Source: Paracoccaceae bacterium
GTDB taxonomy: Bacteria > Pseudomonadota > Alphaproteobacteria > Rhodobacterales > Rhodobacteraceae
DNA: 63,078 nt
Assembly (NCBI GenBank): GCA_020832655.1
Contig: JAFIEF010000014.1
Location: 1 to 63,078 of the forward strand
Direction of reading: 5' to 3'
Part shown: piece after piece, positions 13,185 through 26,401 of the stretch
Layout: the number at the start of each line of letters is the position of its first letter
Position numbering within the stretch: the first letter of the stretch is position 1
Made by a program: the position numbers and the translations under genes
Notes under the pieces: model-generated
Seen by the model: the letters and a program-made list of their open reading frames with translations, nothing else
The model's database searches: none
What the model was told of the DNA's origin: nothing

Positions 13185-13889
13185 TCACTGCCAGGTGACA
13201 TCGCCCAGAAAGATATAGCCCGCGCCATAGATCGTCTTGATCAGGCGGGGGTTGCGCGGGTCTTCGCCCAGCTTTGTGCGCAGCCGCGAAATGCGCACAT
13301 CCATCGCCCGGTCGAAACTGTCCCCTGCCGCGCCGCCCAGCGAATCGAGCATCTGCGCGCGCGAGATCAGCCGCTTGGGGCTGCCCAGAAACAGGCGCAG
13401 CACCTCGCCCTCGGCATGGCTGAAGGGGGTTTCCGCGCCTTGCGCGTCAATCAGCACATAGCTGTCGAATTTGGCGGTCCAGCCATTGAAACGCGCGGTC
13501 ATCGGCGCGGCTTCGGGCGCGCTTGCCGGTTTGCGCAGCCTTGCGCGGATGCGCGCCACCACTTCGGCCGGGTCAAACGGCTTGATGATGTAGTCATCCG
13601 CCCCCAGCTCCAGCCCGGTGACACGGTCCTGCACCTGCGCCCGCCCGGAAATGATGATGATGGTGGCCCCCGATTCCAGCGCCAGCCGGTGTACCAGTGT
13701 CAGCCCGTCGCGATCAGGCAGCCCCAGATCGACCAGACAGACATCAGGGGTGATGCGCCGCAGCGCTGCTTCGAATTCAGTGGCGCGCGCAAAGCAAGAG
13801 GTTTCGAACCCCGCGTCCTGTAACGCCGAAGACAGGACCGCGCGAATCTCCGGCTCGTCATCGAGAATGGCAATATGCGGTTTGGTCAT
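13185..13889 (-). CDS. OmpR/PhoB-type response regulator
   Basis: A 234-residue two-domain regulator. The receiver domain has the acidic pair in ILDDEPEIR, the phospho-acceptor Asp near residue 52 (CLVDLGLPDRDG) and the lysine in DDYIIKPFDPAEV. The C-terminal winged helix has SHAEGEVLRLFLGSPKRLISR and DVRISRLRTKLGED with TIYGAGYIF. Its ATG overlaps the stop of the upstream kinase gene by four bases (ATGA), so the two are translated together and form a cognate pair. The longer open frame into the kinase gene is rejected. Confidence 0.93.
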   Translation of the reverse strand: MTKPHIAILDDEPEIRAVLSSALQDAGFETSCFARATEFEAALRRITPDVCLVDLGLPDRDGLTLVHRLALESGATIIIISGRAQVQDRVTGLELGADDYIIKPFDPAEVVARIRARLRKPASAPEAAPMTARFNGWTAKFDSYVLIDAQGAETPFSHAEGEVLRLFLGSPKRLISRAQMLDSLGGAAGDSFDRAMDVRISRLRTKLGEDPRNPRLIKTIYGAGYIFLGDVTWQ

Positions 13890-15814
13890 CCATACCCCTT
13901 GAGCAACTGTGCCAGCGCGGCGTCCCCGAAGGGTTTTGTCAGTACCGGAAATTCTGCCGCGGCGGCCTTGTGCAGCCTGTCCTGTGCCGGCAGCGCGGTC
14001 ATCAGGTAAAGCCGCATCATGCCGCGCGCGCGCAACCGGCGCAACAGGTCCAGCCCGGTCAGCGTGCCGGGCAGGTTGATATCGGACACAACCGCGCTCA
14101 GCCCCGGCAGATCGGCCAGGGCAAGCGCCTCGTCGGCGCTGGCGGCCTCTATCACCGAATGCCCCAGTTCGCACAGCATGGCGCGCACGGCTTCGCGGAT
14201 GGTATCGGTATCCTCGACCAGCAGCACCATGCCTGCGCCCCCCTGCTGGCCCGTGGTTTCCACCAGCTTCAGCGGCAGGCGCAGCGCGACCTTTGCGCCG
14301 CCTTCAGGCAGGTTTGACAGCCGCACAGTGCCCCCGGCCAGAGTGGTCTGGTCATAGACCATCGCCAGCCCCAGACCGGACCCATCCACCCCCTTGGTGG
14401 TGAAGAACGGGTCCAGCGCGCGCTCCAGCGCATCGGCACTGAAGCCGGGGCCGGTATCGCTGAGCACCAGTTCCAGCCAAGTATCGGCGACCGGGGCCAC
14501 CTGCAAGCTGATCTGGCCGGAACTACCTGCGATGGCGTCACGGGCGTTCAGGATCAGATTCAACAAGCTGTCCTGCACCATGCCCTGATCAAGCATCACC
14601 ATGCCAAGCTGCGGCGATATCTGCACATCAAGCGAGATCCGGTCCGGCAGGGCGGGGCGGGCCATCAGCAGGATGTCATCCAGAAGCGCCTGAAGATCGG
14701 TGGGTTTGAGATGCAATTCGCGCGGCCCCGAGATCGAGGCGATCCGGTCCAGCAACACCCCGCCGCGGCGTGCTGCGGCCATTGTGGACTGCACCATCGG
14801 GCGCAGGCTGGCGGCCAGATCGTCATGGCGCATCATCTGCCCCTGCAGGCCCAGAATGATCGTCAGCAGATTGCCGAAATCATGCACCAGCCCGGACGAT
14901 AGCTGTGCGGCCAGTTCGCGCTTGCGGGTCTGGGCAAGCGCCGCGCGCGCCTGAGCTTCCTCGGTGACATCCATCGACAGCACATAGATGCCGCGGATCG
15001 GCCCGCCATCGACCTGATCGGGGGTCAGTGCCAGCCGGACCCGCCGCCCGCTTTCGTCATGGGTGAATTCGTGAACCGCGTTTTCGCCCTGAAGAACTGC
15101 ATGCAGGAAGGGCGCGATCTTGTCATAGACGCTGCCCAGAACCTCGTTGGCGGGGCGGCCGATGATGTCCTGCGGCAGGCCCGGAAAGATCGAGGACAGC
15201 CGCCGGTTCGAATAGGTGTAGCACAGATCCCGGTCCATATGGGCGATATGGGCGGGCATCATTTCCGTTGTCAGGCGGGTGCGGGCTTCCATCTCGGTCA
15301 GTTCGCGCTTGGCTTGTTCCAGCGCCGCGTTGGAAGCAGCCAGTGCGCGGTTGGTCTGGGCCAGCCTTTCGGCATGGGCCAGCACCTCGCCCGACAGCTC
15401 TTCAGATCTGGCGCGCAGCAGACCTTCCTGCAACTTGATCTCGGTAATGTCGGTATAGACCGTGACCCAGCCGCCCTGCGGCAGAGGGGCACCTTCGACA
15501 CTGATCCAGCGGCCATTGGCGCGCAGCCGTTCCATGTAGTGCGGCACAAAGGCGCGCGCAGTCTTCACGCGCACCCGCACGGCTTCTTCGGGGTCATCGA
15601 CATGGCCATATTCGCCGCGCCCGACCAGATAGCTGATCGTGTCCTCGAACGCGGCTCCGGGCTGCACCAGATGGTCGGGAAATTCGAACATTTCCTGATA
15701 GCGCCGGTTTGAAACAGCCAGCCGCAGATCACTGTCGAAAATCGACAGCGCCTGCTGGATCATGTTCAGCCCCGCCCCCATCAGGTTTATGCGGGTCATT
15801 TCCGTCAGTGACAC
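13886..15814 (-). CDS. PAS-domain hybrid sensor histidine kinase with C-terminal receiver
   Basis: About 642 residues without an obvious membrane segment, so probably a cytosolic sensor. Two PAS-like modules come first (around residues 15-130 and 170-290), then a coiled-coil linker, the H-box LVHDFGNLLTIILG near residue 310, the ATP-binding domain (LNLILNARDAI for the N-box; SDTGPGFS and GSGLGLAMVYDQ for the G-boxes) and a receiver domain with VSDINLPGTLTG holding the acceptor Asp. I start at GTG 15814 because GGAGG lies six bases upstream; this places the first PAS module at the N-terminus. ATG 15799 is the alternative. The signal is unknown. The internal receiver plus the coupled OmpR-type regulator suggests branched phosphotransfer. 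Confidence 0.9.
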   Translation of the reverse strand: MSLTEMTRINLMGAGLNMIQQALSIFDSDLRLAVSNRRYQEMFEFPDHLVQPGAAFEDTISYLVGRGEYGHVDDPEEAVRVRVKTARAFVPHYMERLRANGRWISVEGAPLPQGGWVTVYTDITEIKLQEGLLRARSEELSGEVLAHAERLAQTNRALAASNAALEQAKRELTEMEARTRLTTEMMPAHIAHMDRDLCYTYSNRRLSSIFPGLPQDIIGRPANEVLGSVYDKIAPFLHAVLQGENAVHEFTHDESGRRVRLALTPDQVDGGPIRGIYVLSMDVTEEAQARAALAQTRKRELAAQLSSGLVHDFGNLLTIILGLQGQMMRHDDLAASLRPMVQSTMAAARRGGVLLDRIASISGPRELHLKPTDLQALLDDILLMARPALPDRISLDVQISPQLGMVMLDQGMVQDSLLNLILNARDAIAGSSGQISLQVAPVADTWLELVLSDTGPGFSADALERALDPFFTTKGVDGSGLGLAMVYDQTTLAGGTVRLSNLPEGGAKVALRLPLKLVETTGQQGGAGMVLLVEDTDTIREAVRAMLCELGHSVIEAASADEALALADLPGLSAVVSDINLPGTLTGLDLLRRLRARGMMRLYLMTALPAQDRLHKAAAAEFPVLTKPFGDAALAQLLKGYG

Positions 15815-15922
15815 GGGGAGCCTCCACCAAGCCTGCACATTGCGCAATACTGGAAAAGCCGGGTCTGCGCAAACAGCCGTGATGACCCCAAGCCATGCCG
15901 GAAGCAGAAAATCGGCATGTAA

Positions 15923-15938
15923 CAATTCGTAAGAATTG
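15923..15938. promoter_or_regulatory. Perfect palindrome, candidate operator upstream of the acyl-CoA ligase/ABC operon
   Basis: CAATTC-GTAA-GAATTG: 6-base arms and a 4-base spacer in an A/T-rich patch of the region between the divergent kinase and ligase genes. It is the right size for a TetR- or GntR-type dimer. No binding protein is identified. Confidence 0.4.
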
Positions 15939-15989
15939 GGCAAAACTGAAGCAAGAATCACCACGCCACATATCGCCAACAGTTTGGTC

Positions 15990-16048: not shown

Positions 16049-18031
16049 GTGAGCGCGACCGCCGCAACCAATTCGGTGCCGGCAGAGCTTTGCTCTGTGC
16101 CTGCACTTCTGGCCCGCAACGCCAGACAATACCCGCTTAACCCCGCCTATCGCGAAAAAGAGTTCGGCATCTGGCAAAGCTGGACATGGGCTGAAACCCA
16201 GGACGAAGTGCGGGCGATGGCGCTGGGATTTCTGGTGCTGGGGATGCAGCAGGGCGACTATGTCGCCATCATCGGGCGCAACCGTCCGGCGCTATACTGG
16301 TCAATGGTTGCAGCGCAGTCGGTGGGGGCGATTCCGGTGCCGCTTTATCAAGACGCGGTGGCAGAAGAGATGGCCTATGTGCTGGACCATTGCGGTGCGC
16401 GCTTTGTCGTGTGCGGCGATCAGGAGCAGGTCGACAAGGTTCTGGAGGTTCAGGAAAAGGTCAAATGCATCGAGGAGATCCTCTATCTCGACAAGCGCGG
16501 CATGCGCAAATACGACCACACCCACATGAACTGGCTGGAAGATGCCATGCGCGAAGGCCGCGCGGCGGAAACGCGCCTCGGGGCAGAGCTGGAAAAGCGC
16601 ATTGCAGCGCTGGGCTGGGACGATACCTGCGTGATGCTTTATACGTCGGGCACCACTGGCAAGCCCAAGGGCGTGGTGCTGAGCAACCGCAATATCATCA
16701 TCACCTCGAAGAACAGTTCTGAATTCGACCATCTGAAACCGGGCGACGAGATTCTGGCCTATCTGCCGATGGCCTGGGTGGGGGATTTCATCTTTGCCAT
16801 CGGGCAGGCCTATTGGACCGGCTTCTGTGTCAACTGCCCGGAATCGGCGCAGACCATGCTGACCGATCTGCGCGAGATCGGGCCGACCTATTACTTTGCC
16901 CCGCCGCGCATCTTTGAAAACATGCTGACCACCGTGATGATCCGCATGGAAGATGCCTCGCCGCTCAAACGGCGCCTGTTCCATTACTTCATGGAACAGG
17001 CCCGCAAGACCGGGCCGAAGCTGCTGGATGGCAAGCCGGTCGGTTTCGGGGACAAGCTGAAATATGCGCTGGGCAATCTGCTGGTCTATGGCCCGCTGAA
17101 AGACACGCTTGGCCTGCGCCGTATCCGTGTGGCCTATACGGCTGGCGAGGCTATCGGGCCGGAAATCTTTGAGTTCTACCGCTCTCTCGGGATCAATCTG
17201 AAGCAGCTCTACGGCCAGACCGAGGCCAGCGTGTTCATTACCCAACAGCCCGATGGCGAGGTCAGAAACGACACGGTTGGCGTCCCGTCACCAGGGGTCG
17301 AGGTGCGCATTGCCGAGAATGGCGAGGTGTTCTACCGCTCGCCCGGCACGTTCGAGAGCTATTACAAGAACCCCGAAAGCACCGCCTCTACCAAAGACCC
17401 AGAAGGCTGGGTCGCTACCGGCGATGCGGGCTTTTTCGAGGAAGGCAGCGGCCATCTGCGCATCATCGACCGCGCCAAGGATGTCGGCAAGATGGCCGAT
17501 GGCGGCATGTTCGCGCCCAAATATGTGGAAAACAAGCTGAAGTTTTTCCCCAATATTCTGGAAGCTGTGGTGTTCGGCAATGACCGCGACCGCTGTGTCG
17601 CCTTCATCAATATCGACCTGTCGGCCGTGGGGTCATGGGCGGAACGCAACAATATCGCCTATTCCAGCTATCAGGAACTTGCCGGCCTCAAGCGCGTGCT
17701 CGACACGATTCAGGAACATGTCGAGACGGTCAATGAAAGCGTGGCGCAGGACGAGATGCTGGCAGGCTGCCAGATCCACCGCTTTCTGGTGCTGCACAAG
17801 GAACTTGACGCCGATGATGGCGAGATGACACGCACCCGCAAGGTCCGCCGCCGCATCGTCGAAGAGAAATTCGCCGATCTGATCGACGCGCTCTATGGTG
17901 GCAAGGACAGCATCTACACCGAAACCGAAGTTACCTATGAAGACGGTCGCAAGGGCAAGCTGAAGGCGACGCTGGAAATCCGCGACGCCAGGGTCTTCGG
18001 TCAGGTGGCCGCGAAGGTGGCGGCGCAATGA
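16049..18031 (+). CDS. AMP-forming long-chain acyl-CoA synthetase family protein
   Basis: A 660-residue ANL-superfamily ligase that activates a carboxylic acid as acyl-AMP and then acyl-CoA. The P-loop-like motif is complete (VMLYTSGTTGKPKGVVLSN, near residues 196-214), as are the A5 block LYGQTEASVF and the hinge region WVATGDAGFFEEG...LRIIDRAKD. The length and the C-terminal extension resemble the long-chain (FadD15/ACSBG-like) group. Translation starts at GTG 16049, seven bases after GGGAGGAG. First gene of an operon with a complete liv-type ABC importer; its stop overlaps the start of the next gene (ATGA). The substrate is unknown; activation of whatever the importer brings in is an inference from context. 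Confidence 0.92.
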   Translation: MSATAATNSVPAELCSVPALLARNARQYPLNPAYREKEFGIWQSWTWAETQDEVRAMALGFLVLGMQQGDYVAIIGRNRPALYWSMVAAQSVGAIPVPLYQDAVAEEMAYVLDHCGARFVVCGDQEQVDKVLEVQEKVKCIEEILYLDKRGMRKYDHTHMNWLEDAMREGRAAETRLGAELEKRIAALGWDDTCVMLYTSGTTGKPKGVVLSNRNIIITSKNSSEFDHLKPGDEILAYLPMAWVGDFIFAIGQAYWTGFCVNCPESAQTMLTDLREIGPTYYFAPPRIFENMLTTVMIRMEDASPLKRRLFHYFMEQARKTGPKLLDGKPVGFGDKLKYALGNLLVYGPLKDTLGLRRIRVAYTAGEAIGPEIFEFYRSLGINLKQLYGQTEASVFITQQPDGEVRNDTVGVPSPGVEVRIAENGEVFYRSPGTFESYYKNPESTASTKDPEGWVATGDAGFFEEGSGHLRIIDRAKDVGKMADGGMFAPKYVENKLKFFPNILEAVVFGNDRDRCVAFINIDLSAVGSWAERNNIAYSSYQELAGLKRVLDTIQEHVETVNESVAQDEMLAGCQIHRFLVLHKELDADDGEMTRTRKVRRRIVEEKFADLIDALYGGKDSIYTETEVTYEDGRKGKLKATLEIRDARVFGQVAAKVAAQ

Positions 18032-18285
18032 CCCCGCCTGTGCACGAACGCCCCAAATTCCCGGTCGCCGCGATCATCGCCCTTGCTGGCCTGATCCTGT
18101 CCTTCGCGGTGGTGCGCTTCTTTCCTGAATTCCTGAAGCCTGCCATCAGCGGCGCGATCACCGGCGCTTTCGGAATACTGGCACTTCAGCGGATCTGGCC
18201 GGGGCTGCCGCTGACGCGCATTCACTACATCATCGGTTCGATCATCGCCTATGGGCTGGTGGTTGGCCTGGTTGGGAGGCTTTGA
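18028..18285 (+). CDS. Small two-helix membrane protein in the ABC/ligase operon
   Basis: 85 residues with two or three hydrophobic stretches (VAAIIALAGLILSFAVVRFF, and IIGSIIAYGLVVGLVGRL at the end). No family is recognised. Its ATG overlaps the ligase stop by four bases and its stop is three bases before the ATPase gene, so it is an integral part of the operon and perhaps an accessory subunit of the transporter. Confidence 0.75.
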   Translation: MTPPVHERPKFPVAAIIALAGLILSFAVVRFFPEFLKPAISGAITGAFGILALQRIWPGLPLTRIHYIIGSIIAYGLVVGLVGRL

Positions 18286-18288
18286 GCG

Positions 18289-19113
18289 ATGCTCGATACA
18301 AACACAGAAGATGGCTACACCACTGCCGATGGCCGCAAGATCGGGGGCGTTGCGATGGAATTGCGCAACATCACCCTGCGCTTTGGCGGTGTGGTGGCGA
18401 TCAAGGATATCAGCTTTGATATCCGCTGGGGGGAAATCCGCGCCATCATCGGGCCCAACGGTGCGGGCAAGTCGTCGATGCTGAACGTGATCTCGGGCTT
18501 CTATCACCCGCAGGAAGGAGAGGTGATCTACAAGGGCTATCGCCGCCCGCGCATGCGCCCCTATCAGGTGGCGCGGCAGGGGATCGCCCGCACCTTTCAG
18601 AATATCGCCCTGTTCGAAGGCATGAGCGTGCTCGACAACATCATGACCGGGCGTCTGCACCACATGAAGGCCAATATCTTCCAGCAGGCGTTGTGGTGGG
18701 GCAAGGCACAACGCGAAGAGCAGGAAAACCGCGAACAGGTCGAGAAGATCATCGATTTTCTGGAAATCCAGCATATCCGCAAGACACCCGTGGCGCGGCT
18801 GCCCTATGGCCTGAAAAAGCGGGTGGAACTGGCCCGTGCGCTGGCTGCCGAACCTTCGATCCTGCTGCTGGATGAGCCGATGGCAGGCATGAATGTCGAA
18901 GAAAAGGAAGACATGTGCCGCTTCATTCTGGATGTGAATGACGAGTTCAACACCACCACTGTTCTGATCGAGCATGACATGGGTGTGGTGATGGACCTGT
19001 CCGACCGAGTGGTGGTGATGGATTACGGCAAGAAGATCGGTGACGGCACCCCGGACGAGGTGCGGGGCAATGAAGAGGTCATCAAGGCCTATCTGGGGGT
19101 GTCACATGACTAA
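18289..19113 (+). CDS. Liv-type ABC transporter ATP-binding protein (LivG-like)
   Basis: 274 residues: Walker A GPNGAGKSSM, Q-loop QVARQGIARTFQNIALF, signature region LPYGLKKRVELARALA (a degenerate LSGGQ, common in LivG), Walker B ILLLDEPMAGMN and H-loop LIEHDMGVV. The C-terminal tail EEVIKAYLG is characteristic of LivG. GGGAGG lies nine bases before the ATG. It pairs with the LivF-like ATPase at 22627 to power import of the ligand bound by the periplasmic protein at 21268. Confidence 0.93.
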   Translation: MLDTNTEDGYTTADGRKIGGVAMELRNITLRFGGVVAIKDISFDIRWGEIRAIIGPNGAGKSSMLNVISGFYHPQEGEVIYKGYRRPRMRPYQVARQGIARTFQNIALFEGMSVLDNIMTGRLHHMKANIFQQALWWGKAQREEQENREQVEKIIDFLEIQHIRKTPVARLPYGLKKRVELARALAAEPSILLLDEPMAGMNVEEKEDMCRFILDVNDEFNTTTVLIEHDMGVVMDLSDRVVVMDYGKKIGDGTPDEVRGNEEVIKAYLGVSHD

Positions 19114-19151
19114 GCAAAGCACAGGGTGCCGGATGACGGGGGAACAGGACC

Positions 19152-20138
19152 ATGCCTGACACGCTTCTTTTCGCGATGGAGGCCGCGCTGAACGGCCTGA
19201 CGGCTGGCGTGATGTATGCGCTTGTGGCGCTGGGTTTCGTGCTGATCTTCAAGGCCAGCGGCATCTTCAACTTTGCCCAGGGGGTGATGGCGCTGTTTGC
19301 CGCGCTGACGCTGGTGGGCTTTCAGTCGGGCCAGATCCCGTTTTCACATCTGATCAATGCGATCCTGGGTACAAGGCTGCACCATTTCGGCTGGAATATG
19401 CCGACGCTTCTGGCGATCCCGGCCACGGTTGCGGTGATGATCCTTCTGGCCATCGTGATCGAGCGTTTCGTGCTCAAACATCTGGTCAATCAGGAACCGA
19501 TCATCCTGTTCATGGCCACCATCGGGCTGGCCTATCTGCTGGAAGGCTTTGGCGACATCATGTGGGGGGCGGAGGTCAAGGCGCTGGATGTGGGCCTGCC
19601 CAAGGGCATGTCCGACACTGTGGATGAGCTGACCTTCAACTGGTTCGGCTATGGCTTCTTCATCGACCGGCTGGAGTTGTGGGCTGCGGGCATCGCTGCC
19701 GTTCTGGTCGCGTCGCTGACGATTTTCTCGCAATACACCAAGCAGGGTCGTGCGCTGCGTGCTGTGGCCGATGACCATCAGGCGGCTTTGTCGGTGGGCA
19801 TCAGCCTGCGCTATATCTGGGTGCTGACCTGGTCGATTGCGGGCATCGTGGCGCTGGTGGCGGGCATCATGTGGGGCTCGAAATCCGGCGTGCAGTTCTC
19901 GCTGTCGCTGATCGCGCTGAAGGCGCTGCCGGTGCTGATCCTGGGTGGCTTCACTTCGATCCCCGGCGCAATTGTCGGCGGGCTGATCATCGGGGTGGGC
20001 GAGAAGCTGTTCGACTTCTTCATGAACCCCATCATCGGCGGCGCGACCGAAAACTGGTTCGCCTATATGCTGGCGCTGGTGTTCCTGCTGTTCCGTCCAC
20101 AAGGCCTGTTTGGCGAAAAGATCATCGAGAGGGTGTAG
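19152..20138 (+). CDS. Liv-type ABC transporter permease (LivH-like)
   Basis: A 328-residue inner-membrane permease with about eight hydrophobic helices. LivH signatures: NGLTAGVMYALVALGFVLIFKASGIFNFAQG at the N-terminus (split here between residues 10 and 40), and GGFTSIPGAIVGGLIIGVGEK near residue 265, with the EAA-like coupling loop TKQGRALRAVADDHQAALSVGI. It follows the ATPase gene by 38 bases and precedes the LivM-like gene by four. Confidence 0.93.
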   Translation: MPDTLLFAMEAALNGLTAGVMYALVALGFVLIFKASGIFNFAQGVMALFAALTLVGFQSGQIPFSHLINAILGTRLHHFGWNMPTLLAIPATVAVMILLAIVIERFVLKHLVNQEPIILFMATIGLAYLLEGFGDIMWGAEVKALDVGLPKGMSDTVDELTFNWFGYGFFIDRLELWAAGIAAVLVASLTIFSQYTKQGRALRAVADDHQAALSVGISLRYIWVLTWSIAGIVALVAGIMWGSKSGVQFSLSLIALKALPVLILGGFTSIPGAIVGGLIIGVGEKLFDFFMNPIIGGATENWFAYMLALVFLLFRPQGLFGEKIIERV

Positions 20139-20142
20139 AGAC

Positions 20143-21219
20143 ATGCTTTATCGTGAAGCAGGCGATTTCAAGACCAGCTATGTCGCTGACAGCCAGACCT
20201 TTCCGATCAGGTTCGACCGGTATGGATATTACTTCATCCTCGGTTTTGCCTTTCTGGTCATGCCGCTGATCATCAATGACTACTGGGCCAACTCGATCGT
20301 GGTGCCATTCCTGATCTATGCGATTGCGGCGCTGGGGCTGAACATCCTGATCGGCTATTGCGGGCAGCTTTCGCTTGGCACAGGCGGGTTCATGGCGGTG
20401 GGGGCTTATGCCAGCTACAAGCTGATGACGGCTTTCCCCGATTTCAACATCGTCTTTGTCATCATCACGGCGGGGCTGATCACGGCGGCTGTGGGGGTGC
20501 TGTTCGGCCTGCCCAGCCTGCGCATCAAGGGCTTCTATCTGGCCGTGGCCACGCTGGCGGCACAGTTCTTCCTGATCTGGCTGTTCACCCGTACGGCATG
20601 GTTCTACAACTATTCGCCCACGGGGATGATCTCTGCGCCCACGCGCGAAGTGTTCGGCGTTCCCGTGACCGGCCCGCGCGCCTCGGCTGTGTCGATGTAC
20701 ATGATCTGCCTGTGCTTTCTGGTGGTGACGGCATGGCTGGCGCGCAATCTGACGCGCGGCACCATCGGGCGGCAATGGATGGCCATTCGTGACATGGACA
20801 TCGCCGCAGAGATCATCGGGGTGAACCCGCTGATGGCGAAGCTGACCGCCTTTGCCGCGTCCAGCTTTCTTGTCGGCATTTCGGGCGCGCTTCTGTTCAC
20901 GGTCTATCTGGGCGCGGCCGAAGCAGGCGAGGCGTTCGGGATCGACAAGTCCTTCCTGGTGCTGTTCATGGTCATCATTGGCGGTTTGGGGTCGATCTTC
21001 GGGGCTTTTGCCGGGGCGTTCTTTCTGATTGTCGGGCCGGTGCTGCTGAAGCTGCTCTTGGTCAACGGGCTTGGCTGGCCTACCGATCTGGCCGCGCATC
21101 TGGAGATCATGATCATTGGTGCGCTGATCCTTGTGTTCCTGATCCTGGAACCGCACGGCATTGCCGCGTTGTGGCGCACCATCAAGGAAAAACTTCGCCT
21201 CTGGCCCTTCCCCTATTAA
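20143..21219 (+). CDS. Liv-type ABC transporter permease (LivM-like)
   Basis: A 358-residue second permease subunit. About ten hydrophobic segments, with the typical ALGLNILIGYCGQLSLG near residue 65, the coupling loop GTIGRQWMAIRDMDIAAEIIGV and VIIGGLGSIFGAFAGA. ATG 20143 is four bases after the LivH-like stop; the frame is open upstream inside that gene but gives no sensible N-terminus. Forms the heterodimeric channel with the LivH-like subunit. Confidence 0.92.
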   Translation: MLYREAGDFKTSYVADSQTFPIRFDRYGYYFILGFAFLVMPLIINDYWANSIVVPFLIYAIAALGLNILIGYCGQLSLGTGGFMAVGAYASYKLMTAFPDFNIVFVIITAGLITAAVGVLFGLPSLRIKGFYLAVATLAAQFFLIWLFTRTAWFYNYSPTGMISAPTREVFGVPVTGPRASAVSMYMICLCFLVVTAWLARNLTRGTIGRQWMAIRDMDIAAEIIGVNPLMAKLTAFAASSFLVGISGALLFTVYLGAAEAGEAFGIDKSFLVLFMVIIGGLGSIFGAFAGAFFLIVGPVLLKLLLVNGLGWPTDLAAHLEIMIIGALILVFLILEPHGIAALWRTIKEKLRLWPFPY

Positions 21220-21267
21220 GGGGGCGGGTCGTCGTTGAAACTGTCATCCAAATGGGAGGAGAACCAA

Positions 21268-22560
21268 ATGAAGATGACCAGACTGGCCGCAGCCATTGCG
21301 GCAACCATGATCGCAGCAGGGCCGACTTTGGCCGAGACGCTGCACTTCCCGTCGCTGAGCTATCGCACAGGGCCATTCGCCGCAGGCGGCATTCCCTTTG
21401 CCGACGGCTATTCCGACTATCTGACGCTGATCAATGAACGCGATGGCGGCATTGGCGGTGTTCCGATCCGTCAGACCGAATGCGAGACCGCCTATAACAC
21501 CGAACGCGGCGTGGAATGCTATCAGTCGATCCGCGGCGACAGCCCGCTGGTGCTGCAACCCCTGTCCACCGGCATCACCTATCAGCTGATCCCGCGCACG
21601 ATGGAAGATGGCATCCCCATGCACACGATGGGCTATGGCCGCACCTCGGCGGTGAATGGCGAAGTGTTCAACTGGACCTTCAACTACCCGGCCAATTACT
21701 GGGATGGGGCCAGCGTGATCATCAACTACCTTCTTGACGAAAATGACGGTTCGCTGGAAGGCAAGAAGATCGCGCTGCTCTATCACAACTCGGCCTATGG
21801 GCGCGAACCGATCCCGACCCTGACCCGTCTGGCAGAACGTCATGGCTATGAGCTTTTGACCATTGGTGTGGACAGCCCCGGTCAGGAACAGGGCAGCCAG
21901 TGGTTGCAGATCCGCCGCGAACGCCCGGATTATGTGGTGATGTGGGGCTGGGGTGTGATGAACCCGACCGCTATCCAGGAAGCCGCCAATATCCGCTTCC
22001 CGATGGAAAACTTCATCGGCGTGTGGTGGTCCGGCTCGCAGCAGGACGTTCTGCCCGTTGGCGCAGGCGCGCATGGCTACAAGGCGCTGGCGATGCACGG
22101 CACCGGCATGGACTACCCGATCTATGAGGACATGCAACGCTATGTCATTGATGCCGGAAAATATGCCGGCACGGGTGACGAGGTCGGCACGGTGCTCTAT
22201 TCGCGTGGCATGTATGCGGCGATGCTGGCAGTCGAGGCTGCGAAGAAGGCGCAGGAAATCCACGGCGTTGCGGCCATTACCCCTGCAATGATGCGCGATG
22301 GCATGGCCAATCTGGAAATCACCGAAGAGCTGATGGCCGAGCTTGGCCTGCCGAATTTCGGCCCTGCCTTCTCGGTCGCATGCGAGAACCACGGTGGTTC
22401 CGGTGCGGCGATGATCCAGCAATGGGATGCCAACGCCGGCGAGTGGAACCTGATCACCGACTGGATCGAGCCGGATCGTGAGTTGATCATGGAAATGGCG
22501 ATGGAAGACAGCCTCGCCTATGCGGCGGAAAACAACATCGAACCCGCCTGCCTGAACTGA
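21268..22560 (+). CDS. Periplasmic substrate-binding protein of the Liv-type ABC importer
   Basis: 430 residues with a signal peptide (MKMTRLAAAIAATMIAAGPTLA, cut before ET). The mature part has the two-lobed type I periplasmic-binding fold of LivJ/AmiC relatives: SYRTGPFAAGGIPFADGYSDYLTL, GKKIALLYHNSAYGREPI and PDYVVMWGWGVMNPTAIQEA. It is longer than LivJ (about 345 mature residues), and the binding site is rich in aromatic and acidic residues, so the ligand need not be an amino acid. ATG 21268 has GGGAGGAG six bases upstream. Expected to be the most abundant product of the operon; a hairpin follows its stop. Confidence 0.9.
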   Translation: MKMTRLAAAIAATMIAAGPTLAETLHFPSLSYRTGPFAAGGIPFADGYSDYLTLINERDGGIGGVPIRQTECETAYNTERGVECYQSIRGDSPLVLQPLSTGITYQLIPRTMEDGIPMHTMGYGRTSAVNGEVFNWTFNYPANYWDGASVIINYLLDENDGSLEGKKIALLYHNSAYGREPIPTLTRLAERHGYELLTIGVDSPGQEQGSQWLQIRRERPDYVVMWGWGVMNPTAIQEAANIRFPMENFIGVWWSGSQQDVLPVGAGAHGYKALAMHGTGMDYPIYEDMQRYVIDAGKYAGTGDEVGTVLYSRGMYAAMLAVEAAKKAQEIHGVAAITPAMMRDGMANLEITEELMAELGLPNFGPAFSVACENHGGSGAAMIQQWDANAGEWNLITDWIEPDRELIMEMAMEDSLAYAAENNIEPACLN

Positions 22561-22571
22561 TGAAGACAGCT

Positions 22572-22594
22572 GGTCCCGGCCATGTGCCGGGGCC
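22572..22594 (+). terminator. Intercistronic hairpin after the substrate-binding protein gene
   Basis: GGTCCCGGC (22572-22580) pairs with GCCGGGGCC (22586-22594): a 9-bp stem with one G-T pair and a 5-base loop. No T-run follows and livF continues 33 bases later. It probably attenuates read-through or protects the upstream mRNA 3' end, raising binding-protein output over livF. Confidence 0.55.
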
Positions 22595-22626
22595 ACGACC
22601 ACAAACGATAATGAAGGTCCGTCCCC

Positions 22627-23451
22627 ATGCTAGACGCAAGCCCGACTCAGACGACACTTCTGGAAGTCAACAATATCGAAGTGCTCTATAACCACGTCAT
22701 TCTGGCGTTGAAGGGGGTCAGCCTTGAAGTGCCCAAGGGCGGGATCACGGCCCTGCTGGGGGGCAATGGTGCCGGCAAATCGACCACGCTGAAGGCAATC
22801 TCCAACCTGATCCATTCCGAACGCGGCGAGGTCACCAAGGGCAGCATCCTCTATGACGGCCAGAATGTTGTCGGGCTGGACCCTGCCGATCTGGTCAAGG
22901 CGGGGGTCGTTCAGGTGATGGAGGGGCGGCATTGCTTCGAGCATCTGACCGTCGAGGAAAACCTGCTGACCGGCGCCTATACACGGCGCGACGGGCGCGG
23001 GGCCATCGCCGATGAGCTTGATCTGGTCTATCAGTATTTTCCGCGCCTGAAGGAACGCCGCAAGAGTCAGGCGGGCTATACTTCGGGCGGCGAGCAGCAG
23101 ATGACCGCAATCGGTCGCGCGCTGATGTCGCGCCCCAAGATGATTTTGCTGGACGAGCCGTCAATGGGCCTTGCGCCGCAGCTTGTCGAACAGATCTTTG
23201 AAATCGTCGCGCGGCTGAATTCCGAACAGGGCGTGACCTTCCTTCTGGCCGAACAGAACACCAATGTCGCGCTGCGCTATGCGACAACCGGTTTCATTAT
23301 GGAAAACGGGCGCATCGTGATGGAAGGCGCTGCCAAGGATTTGCGCGAAAACCCCGATGTGAAGGAATTCTATCTGGGCATGTCGGACAAGGGCCGCAAA
23401 AGCTACCGCGAAGTGCGGTCCTATCGTCGTCGCAAGCGTTGGCTTGCCTGA
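22627..23451 (+). CDS. Liv-type ABC transporter ATP-binding protein (LivF-like)
   Basis: 274 residues: Walker A LLGGNGAGKSTT, VQVMEGRHCFEHLTVEENL (LivF Q-loop region), signature YTSGGEQQMTAIGRALM, Walker B MILLDEPSMGLAP and H-loop LLAEQNTNVA. ATG 22627 has only a distant AAGG as SD. It partners with the LivG-like ATPase. The last residues are unusually basic (SYREVRSYRRRKRWLA). The following ligase gene begins 49 bases later. Confidence 0.93.
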   Translation: MLDASPTQTTLLEVNNIEVLYNHVILALKGVSLEVPKGGITALLGGNGAGKSTTLKAISNLIHSERGEVTKGSILYDGQNVVGLDPADLVKAGVVQVMEGRHCFEHLTVEENLLTGAYTRRDGRGAIADELDLVYQYFPRLKERRKSQAGYTSGGEQQMTAIGRALMSRPKMILLDEPSMGLAPQLVEQIFEIVARLNSEQGVTFLLAEQNTNVALRYATTGFIMENGRIVMEGAAKDLRENPDVKEFYLGMSDKGRKSYREVRSYRRRKRWLA

Positions 23452-23500
23452 CATGCCCGGTTCCGTGTTCACGCCAATTCAGCAGCCCAAGGCCAGTGCC

Positions 23501-24718
23501 ATGACCCCGTTTGACGCGTTGGAAACCCGTTCTGCCGATGAACGCAGCGATGCCCTTGCGCGCGCCCTGCCGCAAGCGATTTCCGCGGCGCTGAAGGCAC
23601 CCGGCCTTGCCGCCCATCTGGGCGAGATCGATCCTGCTGCGATCACCGGGCGCATCAGCTTGTCGCAATTGCCGGTGCTGCGCAAATCCGATCTGACCGG
23701 GGCACAGGCGCAAACCCCGCCTTTTGGGGGGTTGAATGCGCGCGCCTTGCAGGAATACGACCATGTCTTCCAGTCGCCGGGTCCGATCTATGAACCGGGG
23801 CGCGTGGGCCATGACTGGTGGCGGTTGGGGCGGTTTCTGCATGCCTCGGGCGTGGGCAAGGGCGATATCGTCCAGAACTGCTTTTCCTATCATCTGGTGC
23901 CTGCGGGCATGATGTTTGAAAACGCCGCCCGCGCCGTGGGGGCCACAGTGATCCCCGCAGGCACCGGCCAGACCGAATTGCAGGTCATCGCCGCGCGCGA
24001 TATCGGGGCCACCACCTATGCAGGCACGCCCGATTTCCTGAAGATGATCCTGGAAAAAGCTGACGAGATGGGCGTGCATCTTGGCTTCACCAAGGCCGTG
24101 GTGGGCGGCGGCGCGCTGTTCCCGTCGCTGCGCGCCTTCTATGCAGAGCGCGGCATCACCTGCCGCCAATGCTATGCCACGGCTGATCTGGGCAATGTCG
24201 CCTATGAAACCGATGCGATGGAAGGCATGGTCGTTGATGAGGGCGTGATTGTCGAGATCGTGCGCCCCGGCACCGGCGATCCGGTCCCCGAAGGCGAGGT
24301 GGGCGAGATTGTCGTCACCACGCTGAACACCGATTATCCGCTGATCCGCTTCGCCACCGGCGATATGAGCGCGGTCTTGCCCGGCGAAAGCCCCTGCGGG
24401 CGCAGCAATATGCGCATCAAGGGCTGGATGGGGCGTGCCGATCAGACCACCAAGATCAAGGGCATGTTCGTGCGCCCGGAACAGGTTGCAGCCTTGGTCG
24501 CGCATCATGACGAGGTGCATCGCGCCCGCGTCATCGCCAGCCGTTCGGGTGAAAAGGATGTGATGACCGTGCGCATCGAGACCCGTGCGACAAATCCGGC
24601 ATTGTATGAAGCGACGGTGCTGTCTACTCTGAAGCTTCGGGGGACGGTCGAACTGGTGCCGCCCGGTTCGCTGCCCAATGACGGGTTGGTGATCGAGGAT
24701 CTGCGCAGCTACGACTGA
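23501..24718 (+). CDS. Phenylacetate-CoA-ligase-like AMP-binding protein
   Basis: 405 residues of the PaaK branch of adenylate-forming enzymes, which make acyl-CoA thioesters from aromatic and other acids. The N-terminus MTPFDALETRSADERSDAL is typical of the group. FQSPGPIYEPG, CYATADLGNVAYETDAM, VTTLNTDYPLIRFATGD and GWMGRADQTTKIKGMFVRP with the C-terminal subdomain are visible, while the P-loop motif is reduced. I start at ATG 23501 because the family begins there; ATG 23453 and TTG 23444 are in frame but add a non-conserved leader. Last gene of the importer operon and the second CoA ligase in it. Confidence 0.87.
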   Translation: MTPFDALETRSADERSDALARALPQAISAALKAPGLAAHLGEIDPAAITGRISLSQLPVLRKSDLTGAQAQTPPFGGLNARALQEYDHVFQSPGPIYEPGRVGHDWWRLGRFLHASGVGKGDIVQNCFSYHLVPAGMMFENAARAVGATVIPAGTGQTELQVIAARDIGATTYAGTPDFLKMILEKADEMGVHLGFTKAVVGGGALFPSLRAFYAERGITCRQCYATADLGNVAYETDAMEGMVVDEGVIVEIVRPGTGDPVPEGEVGEIVVTTLNTDYPLIRFATGDMSAVLPGESPCGRSNMRIKGWMGRADQTTKIKGMFVRPEQVAALVAHHDEVHRARVIASRSGEKDVMTVRIETRATNPALYEATVLSTLKLRGTVELVPPGSLPNDGLVIEDLRSYD

Positions 24719-24754: not shown

Positions 24755-26401
24755 ATGCGTGTGATTTCGATTGTCCTGCTGGTGCTTGGTGTTGCGCTTT
24801 GGGTGCGTCCGGCCACTGCCGCCGGAATCGCGCTGGTCATTGCAAATGAAGACTATGACCACATCCCTGATGCGCGCGGGGCTGATAGCGTGCTGGACAC
24901 GATTTCGGCGCTGGAGGTGGCAGGCTTCGATGTGTTTTCCGGCTACAATCTGACCACGGAAGAGATGCGCGCCCAACTGGCAGGCGCGTTCGGGCAGATG
25001 CAGCGCGATGGCGCGGCACGGTTCGTGGTGGTGCTGGCTGGGCATTTTGTTCATGCGCGCAGCGGCACATGGCTGTTGGGGGTGGACGCGGATGCGCCGG
25101 GGCTGGCGCTGGCCGATAGTGCGGGGCTGCGCCTTGACGGGGTGATGGAAATCGCAGCGATTGCGCAGGAAAACGCCCTGATCTGGCTGGCCCCCGCAGA
25201 GCTGCGCCGCCCCGCGCAACATTCAGGCGCCGCGTTGGAGGCCGGCTTGCCCGCACGGCTTCTGGTGCCGCAAGGGGTTGGGGTAGTGCGCGGCCCGGCT
25301 TCAGAGGTGGCGGCAGGGCTTGGCCGCACGCTTGCACCGGGGACATTGCTGTCCGATGTCGTCGATGGTGCCCGCGATCTGGCGGGCGAGGGCACGATTT
25401 CGCCGCTGGTGCCGTTCCTGCCCACCGGCTTTGCCCCGGTGGCGCGGGCCGACCGGCAGGCATGGGCCGCCGCGCAGGCCGAAAACACCGAAGATGCCTA
25501 TCGCGCCTATCTTTCCGCCTTCCCGAACGGGTTGAACGCGCAGGCCGCGCGCAATGCCATCGCAGAGCTGCGCAACACCCCCGAACGCATCGAGGACCGG
25601 CTGGATCTGACCCGTGACGAACGCCGCGCGATCCAGCGCGATCTGGTTACGCTGGGCTATAACACGCGCGGTATTGACGGTATCTTCGGCCCCGGCACGC
25701 GCAGCGCGATCCGCGGCTGGCAGGAACAGTCCGGGTTGGAGGCCACCAGCTTCCTGACCCGCGCGCAGGTGCTGCAACTGGCCGCGCAGGCAACCCGCCG
25801 CGCCGCCGAGATCGAGGCCGAGGAACGCGCCCGCCGCGAAGCCCTGGAACGCGAGGACCGGGCCTTCTGGGAAGCCACGGGCGCGGGCACGGACGAGCCG
25901 GGCTTGCGCGCCTATCTGGACCGTTTCCCGCGCGGGATATTCGCCAGCCTTGCGCGCGAGCGGCTGGCGGCGATCGAACAGGCCGCGGCTGAAGACCGGC
26001 TGCGTCAGGACCGCATGGATTGGCGGCGCGCACAGCGCCTTGACAGCATCGACGGCTATGAAGCCTATCTGGCGGACTGGCCCGAAGGTGCCTTTGCCGC
26101 CGAAGCAAGGGCGCGGCTACAGGCGCTGCGCCCCGCCCCCTCGCCCGAAGATCAGGCGCGCGCGCGCGACCGCGATGCCGAAGCCGCGCTGCATCTTGGT
26201 GCGCCCGCCCGCATCCTGATCGAACGGCGGCTGGCGCAGATGGGTTTTGACCCCGGCGCGATCAATGGCGCTTTCGACGCGGATACGCGCGAAGCAATCG
26301 CAGACGCGCAGGAAGAATTCGGGCTGGTGCCCACAGGCTTCGTGACGCAGGAACTTGTCAATCGCATGCTGGGCGATGCGCTGCGCGGCTTCCTGCGATA
26401 G
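24755..26401 (+). CDS. Secreted caspase-fold pseudoenzyme with repeats and two peptidoglycan-binding domains
   Basis: 548 residues. A signal peptide (residues 1-23) is followed by a caspase/metacaspase-like p20 fold beginning AAGIALVIANEDYDHIPDA with ALEVAGFDVF. The catalytic-histidine strand reads VVVLAGHFVHARSG (His about 97), but the strand that should end in the nucleophile reads ALIWLAPAEL, and the whole protein has no cysteine. Downstream are three short repeats with a common core (AYLSAFPNG, AYLDRFPRG, AYLADWPEG, each followed by an A-x2-AR segment), a charged helical stretch, and two PG_binding_1-like domains (LVTLGYNTRGIDGIFGPGTR near residue 300; LAQMGFDPGAINGAFDADTR near residue 500). 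An active protease is excluded; a periplasmic scaffold or wall-binding protein is inferred. ATG 24755 is 36 bases after the ligase gene, so it may be transcribed with it. Confidence 0.8.
   Translation: MRVISIVLLVLGVALWVRPATAAGIALVIANEDYDHIPDARGADSVLDTISALEVAGFDVFSGYNLTTEEMRAQLAGAFGQMQRDGAARFVVVLAGHFVHARSGTWLLGVDADAPGLALADSAGLRLDGVMEIAAIAQENALIWLAPAELRRPAQHSGAALEAGLPARLLVPQGVGVVRGPASEVAAGLGRTLAPGTLLSDVVDGARDLAGEGTISPLVPFLPTGFAPVARADRQAWAAAQAENTEDAYRAYLSAFPNGLNAQAARNAIAELRNTPERIEDRLDLTRDERRAIQRDLVTLGYNTRGIDGIFGPGTRSAIRGWQEQSGLEATSFLTRAQVLQLAAQATRRAAEIEAEERARREALEREDRAFWEATGAGTDEPGLRAYLDRFPRGIFASLARERLAAIEQAAAEDRLRQDRMDWRRAQRLDSIDGYEAYLADWPEGAFAAEARARLQALRPAPSPEDQARARDRDAEAALHLGAPARILIERRLAQMGFDPGAINGAFDADTREAIADAQEEFGLVPTGFVTQELVNRMLGDALRGFLR

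Follow-up and report, generated by a model that had tools for sequence, protein, structure and literature searches.

An importer operon with an acyl-CoA synthetase in a Paracoccaceae genome: a candidate import-and-trap system for a small carboxylic acid

What would an importer of the Liv type carry when its genes share an operon with an enzyme that makes coenzyme A (CoA) thioesters? The question is raised by an operon on the forward strand of contig JAFIEF010000014.1 from a Paracoccaceae bacterium (assembly GCA_020832655.1), within a stretch of 63,078 nt that is called the window below. A first-pass annotation had described eight genes at 16049–24718, in the order acyl-CoA synthetase (ACS), an 85-residue small membrane protein (SMP), LivG, LivH, LivM, a substrate-binding protein (SBP), LivF and a PaaK-like protein. 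All eight are present on that strand and in that order, with slightly corrected starts that were picked from position and upstream sequence (Table 1). The acs and smp genes overlap by 4 bp, and 3 bp separate smp from livG. The operon is read here as a system that imports a small monocarboxylic acid and traps it in the cell. The likeliest such acid is a branched short-chain one of the isovalerate, isobutyrate, 2-methylbutyrate and pivalate class, and confidence in this reading is evenly balanced.

Under this reading, the SBP would capture the acid in the periplasm, and LivH/LivM with LivG/LivF would import it at the expense of ATP. The ACS would then form the CoA thioester, keeping the acid inside the cell and feeding it into acyl-CoA catabolism, and the PaaK-like protein probably helps by binding acyl-CoA, acyl-AMP or the ACS. 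Import joined to CoA activation is the principle of the FadL-FadD system, in which fatty acid uptake is coupled to CoA activation; the importer here differs in being ATP-driven and served by a binding protein.

Conservation of the gene set

Coupling of a Liv-type importer to an AMP-forming CoA ligase, as proposed in the first-pass annotation, is well supported by two sets of counts. A scan of named genomes gave 589 passing stretches, the best 80 of which were used; all 56 of those with enough flank keep the ACS gene, and 50 of the 56 have the full seven-gene order. This is far above chance. For comparison, 20 paired-permease loci, sugar-type importers included, were fetched from five of eight genomes. 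Such an ACS was found at one of these controls, a rate that is probably too low because genomes G217 and G139, both known to carry other ligase-linked Liv loci, were left out; a PaaK-like gene and branched-chain acyl-CoA enzymes were found at none of the 20 at the set thresholds. One control (L226) encodes a different CoA ligase relative (34% identity to 2-hydroxyisobutyryl-CoA ligase) along with thiolase, crotonase and thioesterase matches, all below thresholds, and ligase-linked Liv operons are therefore not limited to this family. Another (L225) has an isovaleryl-CoA dehydrogenase relative at 34%, also below thresholds. The seven other permease loci fetched from the window's own genome, some of them cut by contig ends, showed neither the ACS nor the PaaK-like gene.

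Across the phylum, SBP matches at E ≤ 1e-30 numbered 44, in 41 of 299 genomes. Among the matches listed, all 15 same-family genomes carry the SBP, and the listed non-matches start with same-class genomes. The window and 32 other SBP loci have the order ACS-(SMP)-LivG-LivH-LivM-SBP-LivF-PaaK-like (type 1), with the ACS gene at all 33 and the PaaK-like gene at 28. One of the five type-1 loci without the latter (L059) lies at a contig end, and its LivF and PaaK-like genes open contig L090. A second type, LivG-ACS-LivH-LivM-SBP-LivF-PaaK-like, was seen at L073 with a diverged SBP; the twelve loci of this type (L073–L084) have the ACS in 12 cases and the PaaK-like gene in 11. In the third type the ACS gene comes last (LivG-LivH-LivM-SBP-LivF-ACS), and the window's own genome has such an operon (L085, contig C31), its ACS at 33% identity. 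Antisense open reading frames (ORFs) produced by the simple gene caller were excluded from the flanking-gene clusters.

Ligase-free homologues, whose frequency the first-pass annotation had set against the coupling, are not equally common: the ACS gene adjoins that of the SBP at 34 of the 44 loci and is absent from 10. SBP identity is at least 41% at the loci with an ACS, except for one at about 30%, and 31–42% at those without; among the latter, L072 has a 24% relative and the contig of L068 is short. Seen from the ligase, all 33 genomes (of the 299) with an ACS match of at least 46% identity have an SBP match within about 6 kb. A PaaK-like match of at least 46% was found in 42 genomes, and all 42 also have an ACS relative of at least 39%.

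Several of the ligase-free importer relatives at L063–L070 are close to acyl-CoA-dehydrogenase-like and flavin-monooxygenase-like genes, as judged by eye, and perhaps serve sulfur acquisition. The operon at L165, on a contig labelled as a Klebsiella pneumoniae metagenome-assembled genome, resembles the betaproteobacterial ones, and this contig is probably misbinned or mislabelled.

Proteins encoded by the operon

CoA ligases of different branches had been placed at both ends of the operon by the first-pass annotation; the description is supported for the ACS and not for the PaaK-like protein. The catalytic motifs of the window ACS are intact (TSGTTGKPKG for A3 and MTRTRKVRR for A10), and its 129 relatives show the A10 pattern in 128 cases and the strict A3 pattern in 118. 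The eleven without strict A3 (SGTTG-type) come from six type-2 loci (L074–L078 and L080) and from L046, L162 and L166–L168. FadD11 is the best NCBIfam model for the ACS, at 278.3 bits against a cut-off of 950.

That the PaaK-like protein works as a normal ligase is improbable: SGTTG is found in none of 124 family members, and all 124 have SPG instead. In their alignment, the phosphate loop of PaaK (SSGTTGxP; SSGTTGKP in E. coli) is replaced by SPGPIYEP, a tight form of which fits 120 sequences, the remaining four being close variants. That the altered loop is so strongly conserved points to a change of function and not to decay. The C-terminal A10 lysine position was taken from E. coli PaaK, where this residue is catalytic, and was scored by a simple pattern, giving Lys in 80 sequences, Leu in 16, Arg in 6, another residue in 3 and no reading in 19. 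The 16 with Leu are the window protein (24660–24718) and the remaining 15 sequences from its genus, so most of the wider family keeps the lysine that the window protein does not. With its motifs kept in the ACS and altered in the PaaK-like protein, the operon therefore has a single clear CoA ligase, accompanied by an ANL-fold protein of an atypical kind, and the PaaK-like family offers an example of such a protein that is strongly conserved yet without the usual phosphate loop.

The nearest solved relatives of the PaaK-like protein by sequence are headed by PaaK (4r1l, 2.5e-34), with 2-hydroxyisobutyryl-CoA synthetase fourth (6hdw, 3.6e-19), the relatedness extending over about 310 residues. 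Kinship to PaaK would fit an importer of aromatic acids of the phenylacetate or benzoate type, as would several Liv-fold SBPs with aromatic ligands that appear among the structural matches of the SBP at 12–19% identity. An aromatic ligand is nonetheless hardly probable. The loop differs in every family member, the PaaK model TIGR02155 is not reached (101.8 against 646.3 bits), and no recurrent ring-cleavage or paa cluster was seen among the flanking-gene representatives, which were surveyed by eye and not fully annotated, though Xanthobacter has the PaaD-like thioesterase described below. It was on the loop motif and the model score that an aromatic reading of the PaaK name was rated low.

The transporter genes form a complete Liv/HAAT set in one operon and share the five-part architecture of E. 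coli LivKHMGF: a Peripla_BP_6 SBP, two BPD_transp_2 permeases, and LivG and LivF ATPases, the former with the LivG C-terminal domain. The N-terminus of the SBP looks like a signal peptide. Its structure model (pLDDT 88.4, pTM 0.89) is closest to 4ru0 among solved structures, followed by 3lkb, 3eaf and 4n03. Of these, 4ru0, an SBP from the Pseudomonas fluorescens group, belongs to the same SBP subfamily (E 1.8e-94, TM 0.87); by eye, its N-terminus is most like those of the L067 and L068 SBPs, where neither ACS nor PaaK-like gene was found (on a short contig in the case of L068). Resembling a ligase-free subtype and naming no ligand in its title, 4ru0 was set aside as a direct guide to the ligand. 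The Liv-type fold is also shared by 4n03 (Thermomonospora curvata), which has a carboxylic acid ligand by its title and only 16% identity.

In an hhalign alignment to LivK, which is weak (probability 15.5), the position of the amine-binding Glu of LivJ/LivK is occupied by an invariant Met in the SBP, and that of Ser79 by an invariant Thr. Glu226 of LivJ is the acidic residue that binds the alpha-amino group of the ligand. To the extent that so weak an alignment can be relied on, the two replacements therefore favour a carboxylate without an alpha-amino group.

An importer of branched-chain amino acids, into whose operon unrelated ligases were swept, would have the HAAT architecture and the Pfam families observed, and valine is bound in 3lkb, the second structural match. 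Such an importer is very improbable here, however. The operon misses the cut-offs of all four Liv NCBIfam models (LivG 250.3 against 362 bits, LivF 210.4 against 441, LivH 91.6 against 379 and LivM 114.4 against 366), the amine-binding Glu is replaced in the alignment just described, and a CoA ligase has been added that is retained at every named locus with enough flank.

Clues to the ligand

Genes next to the operon in other genomes point to small branched acids. In Xanthobacter Py2, genes for a B12 subunit, a mutase, MeaB, a PaaD-like thioesterase and the PaaK-like protein precede the ACS and transporter genes on the same strand, and the mutase has reportedly been shown to be a pivalyl-CoA/isovaleryl-CoA mutase. 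In both Roseovarius THAF8 and Diaphorobacter HDW4B, such a B12 mutase/MeaB set stands immediately before the ACS gene and is read in the same direction. This mutase seems to be rare: a search at 1e-100 picked out homologues in 7 of 72,556 plasmid records, and one at 1e-150, run without a positive control, in none of 398 genomes. Given this apparent rarity, the three adjacencies are unlikely to be due to chance, though Diaphorobacter was reached via the mutase search itself. Three of the seven mutase records adjoin the operon, in two others the neighbours of the mutase are genes for a carboxylase, a crotonase and an acyl-CoA dehydrogenase, and a Sphingobium record has an AMP-binding protein and a thiolase alongside. 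The seventh record is from Natronorubrum.

The Sphingobium YC-XJ3 plasmid (L135) carries the B12 mutase/MeaB module twice, with insertion sequence elements around.

Other loci have different enzymes of branched acyl-CoA metabolism. IcmF lies near the operon above its curated cut-off in L169 and L189, and L174 and L060 have a close homologue there; the substrates of IcmF are isobutyryl-CoA and also pivalyl- and isovaleryl-CoA (PMC10481361). In Peteryoungia, genes for the breakdown of isovalerate (isovaleryl-CoA dehydrogenase, HMG-CoA lyase and a carboxylase pair) are found 3′ of the PaaK-like gene, and methylcrotonyl-type carboxylase genes are near the operon in L195. At L031, a 3-hydroxyisobutyryl-CoA hydrolase (427 against 274 bits) is encoded 3′ of the operon with a thiolase and an acyl-CoA dehydrogenase. 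Several Rhodocyclales-like loci (L174, L175, L182, L184, L187, L189 and L200) have a family III CoA transferase gene, possibly that of an alpha-methylacyl-CoA racemase, directly after the PaaK-like gene, which it overlaps in L174, L182 and L189. The window's own genome carries a methylcrotonyl-type carboxylase subunit (85% identity), next to which lie the second subunit and the end of an isovaleryl-CoA dehydrogenase (83% over 71 residues).

That the ligand is a carboxylate is probable, and that it is a branched short-chain acid falls a little short of an even chance. The first-pass annotation had proposed an aromatic or a medium- or long-chain carboxylic acid; its carboxylic acid is kept here, and its choice of kind is not, since the gene context makes short branched acids the more likely. 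A fuller version, in which the operon is a widespread and dedicated ATP-driven importer of short branched acids that in some strains could also supply quaternary-carbon acids such as pivalate for B12-dependent rearrangement, and in which the PaaK-like protein, a one-time PaaK-type ligase with its phosphate loop rebuilt to SPGPIYEP, has turned into an accessory that hands the acid to the ACS or regulates it, is a tentative proposal and rather unlikely.

Several points weigh against a branched short-chain ligand. Branched-chain genes flank a minority of the operons in the larger sets, at 2 of 33 type-1 and 4 of 80 named loci, and at 4 of 7 plasmid loci, six of which were chosen from 187 records with an SBP match while the seventh (L136) came from the mutase search. 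The plasmid loci of Ciceribacter, Methylibium and Aminobacter show no branched-chain genes within the stretch at the set thresholds, and no branched-chain acyl-CoA gene was seen near the operon within the window. The absence of such genes from the 20 controls is not significantly lower by itself. On the protein side, the residue equivalences in the SBP are provisional because the match to LivK is weak, and its second nearest structure holds an amino acid. Within the genus, the SBP is present in only 26 of 37 genomes (16 of the 24 of good quality), and the function of the operon is therefore dispensable.

Two further objections lead to a different ligand. The ACS is of the long-chain type, with no cut-off reached among the best 25 of its 91 NCBIfam matches, and 4n03, the fourth nearest structure to the SBP and a weak sequence match as well, is titled as the SBP of a fatty acid ABC transporter. 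Together with the beta-oxidation-like genes near third-type operons in some genomes (L087 and L088; matches at 33–64% identity), they would suit uptake of long-chain, possibly methyl-branched, fatty acids, which the SBP would ferry through the periplasm for activation by the ACS, in an ABC analogue of FadL/FadD. We regard this as unlikely, because the neighbours that can be named at type-1 loci serve C4–C5 branched acyl-CoAs.

A last objection comes from Phaeobacter inhibens, where an ABC transporter with the order LivF, SBP, LivM, LivH is said to import L-lactate, reportedly on the basis of mutant fitness. A small hydroxy acid such as lactate or 2-hydroxyisobutyrate would also fit the Methylibium PM1 plasmid, on which a B12 mutase/ligase/MeaB set lies about 20 kb from the operon. 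This alternative is quite improbable: lactate needs no CoA ligation, the Phaeobacter locus tags were not found in the literature searched, and the passages covered from one candidate paper make no mention of the transporter. The P. inhibens chromosome is not among the 80 named loci.

Among the papers listed by literature searches, none was found to describe the operon that is read here as a branched-acid importer. A Roseobacter proteome lists PaaK and a branched-chain SBP, which from the part available could not be tied to it (PMC4103551). The parts are familiar, and their combination with an odd enzyme-like partner is, as far as was found, little explored. In the annotated records examined, the genes are currently named as branched-chain amino acid permease, ABC transporter or AMP-binding protein, and once as putative phenylacetate-CoA ligase; the labels that refer to amino acids or phenylacetate are probably misleading, and this in many genomes, given the 589 matching stretches. 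Were the ligand a branched short-chain acid, the operon would account for the scavenging of amino acid fermentation products by aerobes, and would give a genetic handle on the uptake of tert-alkyl acids.

Upstream region and the variable slot

The region upstream of acs holds a conserved element and two divergent regulatory genes (Table 1). The element is found in all 30 readable kinase/ACS intergenic regions (from 40 loci), two Rhizobiaceae plasmids included, with 0–9 mismatches; the best match in base-shuffled intergenic regions has 12. Its core matches the window once, against a chance mean of 0.04. The element is a probable operator. The OmpR-type regulator adjoins the operon in 12 of 14 same-family loci, and the kinase is found at 40% identity or more in 13 of the 33 type-1 loci. 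A Crp/Fnr regulator is near the operon in 13 of 33 type-1, 37 of 80 named and 7 of 12 type-2 loci. The operon is probably controlled by the kinase/regulator pair in Rhodobacteraceae and by a Crp/Fnr regulator in many others.

Table 1. Features of the operon and its upstream region (window coordinates)
Feature	Position	Strand	Remarks
OmpR-type response regulator	13185..13880	-	exact start not fixed; PF00072 71.1 and PF00486 (Trans_reg_C) 64.7 bits on 13185-13847
PAS hybrid histidine kinase	13886..15799	-	divergent from operon; PAS_7, PAS_4, HATPase_c, Response_reg
Conserved 29-bp element	15919..15947	+	kinase/ACS intergenic region; consensus GTTACAATTCGTAAGGATTGCGCAAAACT
acs	16049..18031	+	GTG start 16049; long-chain-type AMP-forming acyl-CoA synthetase; AMP-binding PF00501 237.9 bits
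smp	18028..18285	+	ATG start 18028; optional small membrane protein; no Pfam or NCBIfam family
livG	18289..19113	+	ATG start 18289; ABC_tran 112.2 bits; BCA_ABC_TP_C (PF12399) 41.8 against 25.5 bits
livH	19152..20138	+	ATG start 19152; permease; BPD_transp_2 98.4 bits
livM	20143..21219	+	ATG start 20143, not TTG 20110; permease; BPD_transp_2 115 bits
sbp	21268..22560	+	ATG start 21268, giving 430 residues; Peripla_BP_6 138.6 bits
livF	22627..23451	+	ATG start 22627; ATPase; ABC_tran 94.6 bits
paaK-like	23501..24718	+	ATG start 23501 or earlier; AMP-binding 37.5 bits; ANL-fold protein

The SMP, which the first-pass annotation had taken for an extra subunit of the importer, has, by alignment and hydropathy, two strongly hydrophobic stretches and is rich in Gly in the middle. 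Matches to it were found in 5 of 37 genus genomes and 7 of 198 family genomes; five of those seven lie at the acs-livG junction, and the two weakest lie elsewhere. Diverged copies occupy the junction in L039, L041 and L116, the Gly-rich middle being common to all. Sixteen of 20 genus loci have a readable junction, which holds only an 18-bp gap in ten, an SMP gene in three and, in L118, L120 and L121, a methyltransferase-like ORF of about 1 kb (identified by eye). The SMP is therefore not a fixed subunit, a role that was rejected on these junctions, and its position is an optional, variable slot, with the protein missing from most relatives examined.

Directly 3′ of the operon, at 24758–26401, lies a gene for a caspase-domain protein with peptidoglycan-binding domains, a relative of which is found at the same place in those genus loci that reach that far.

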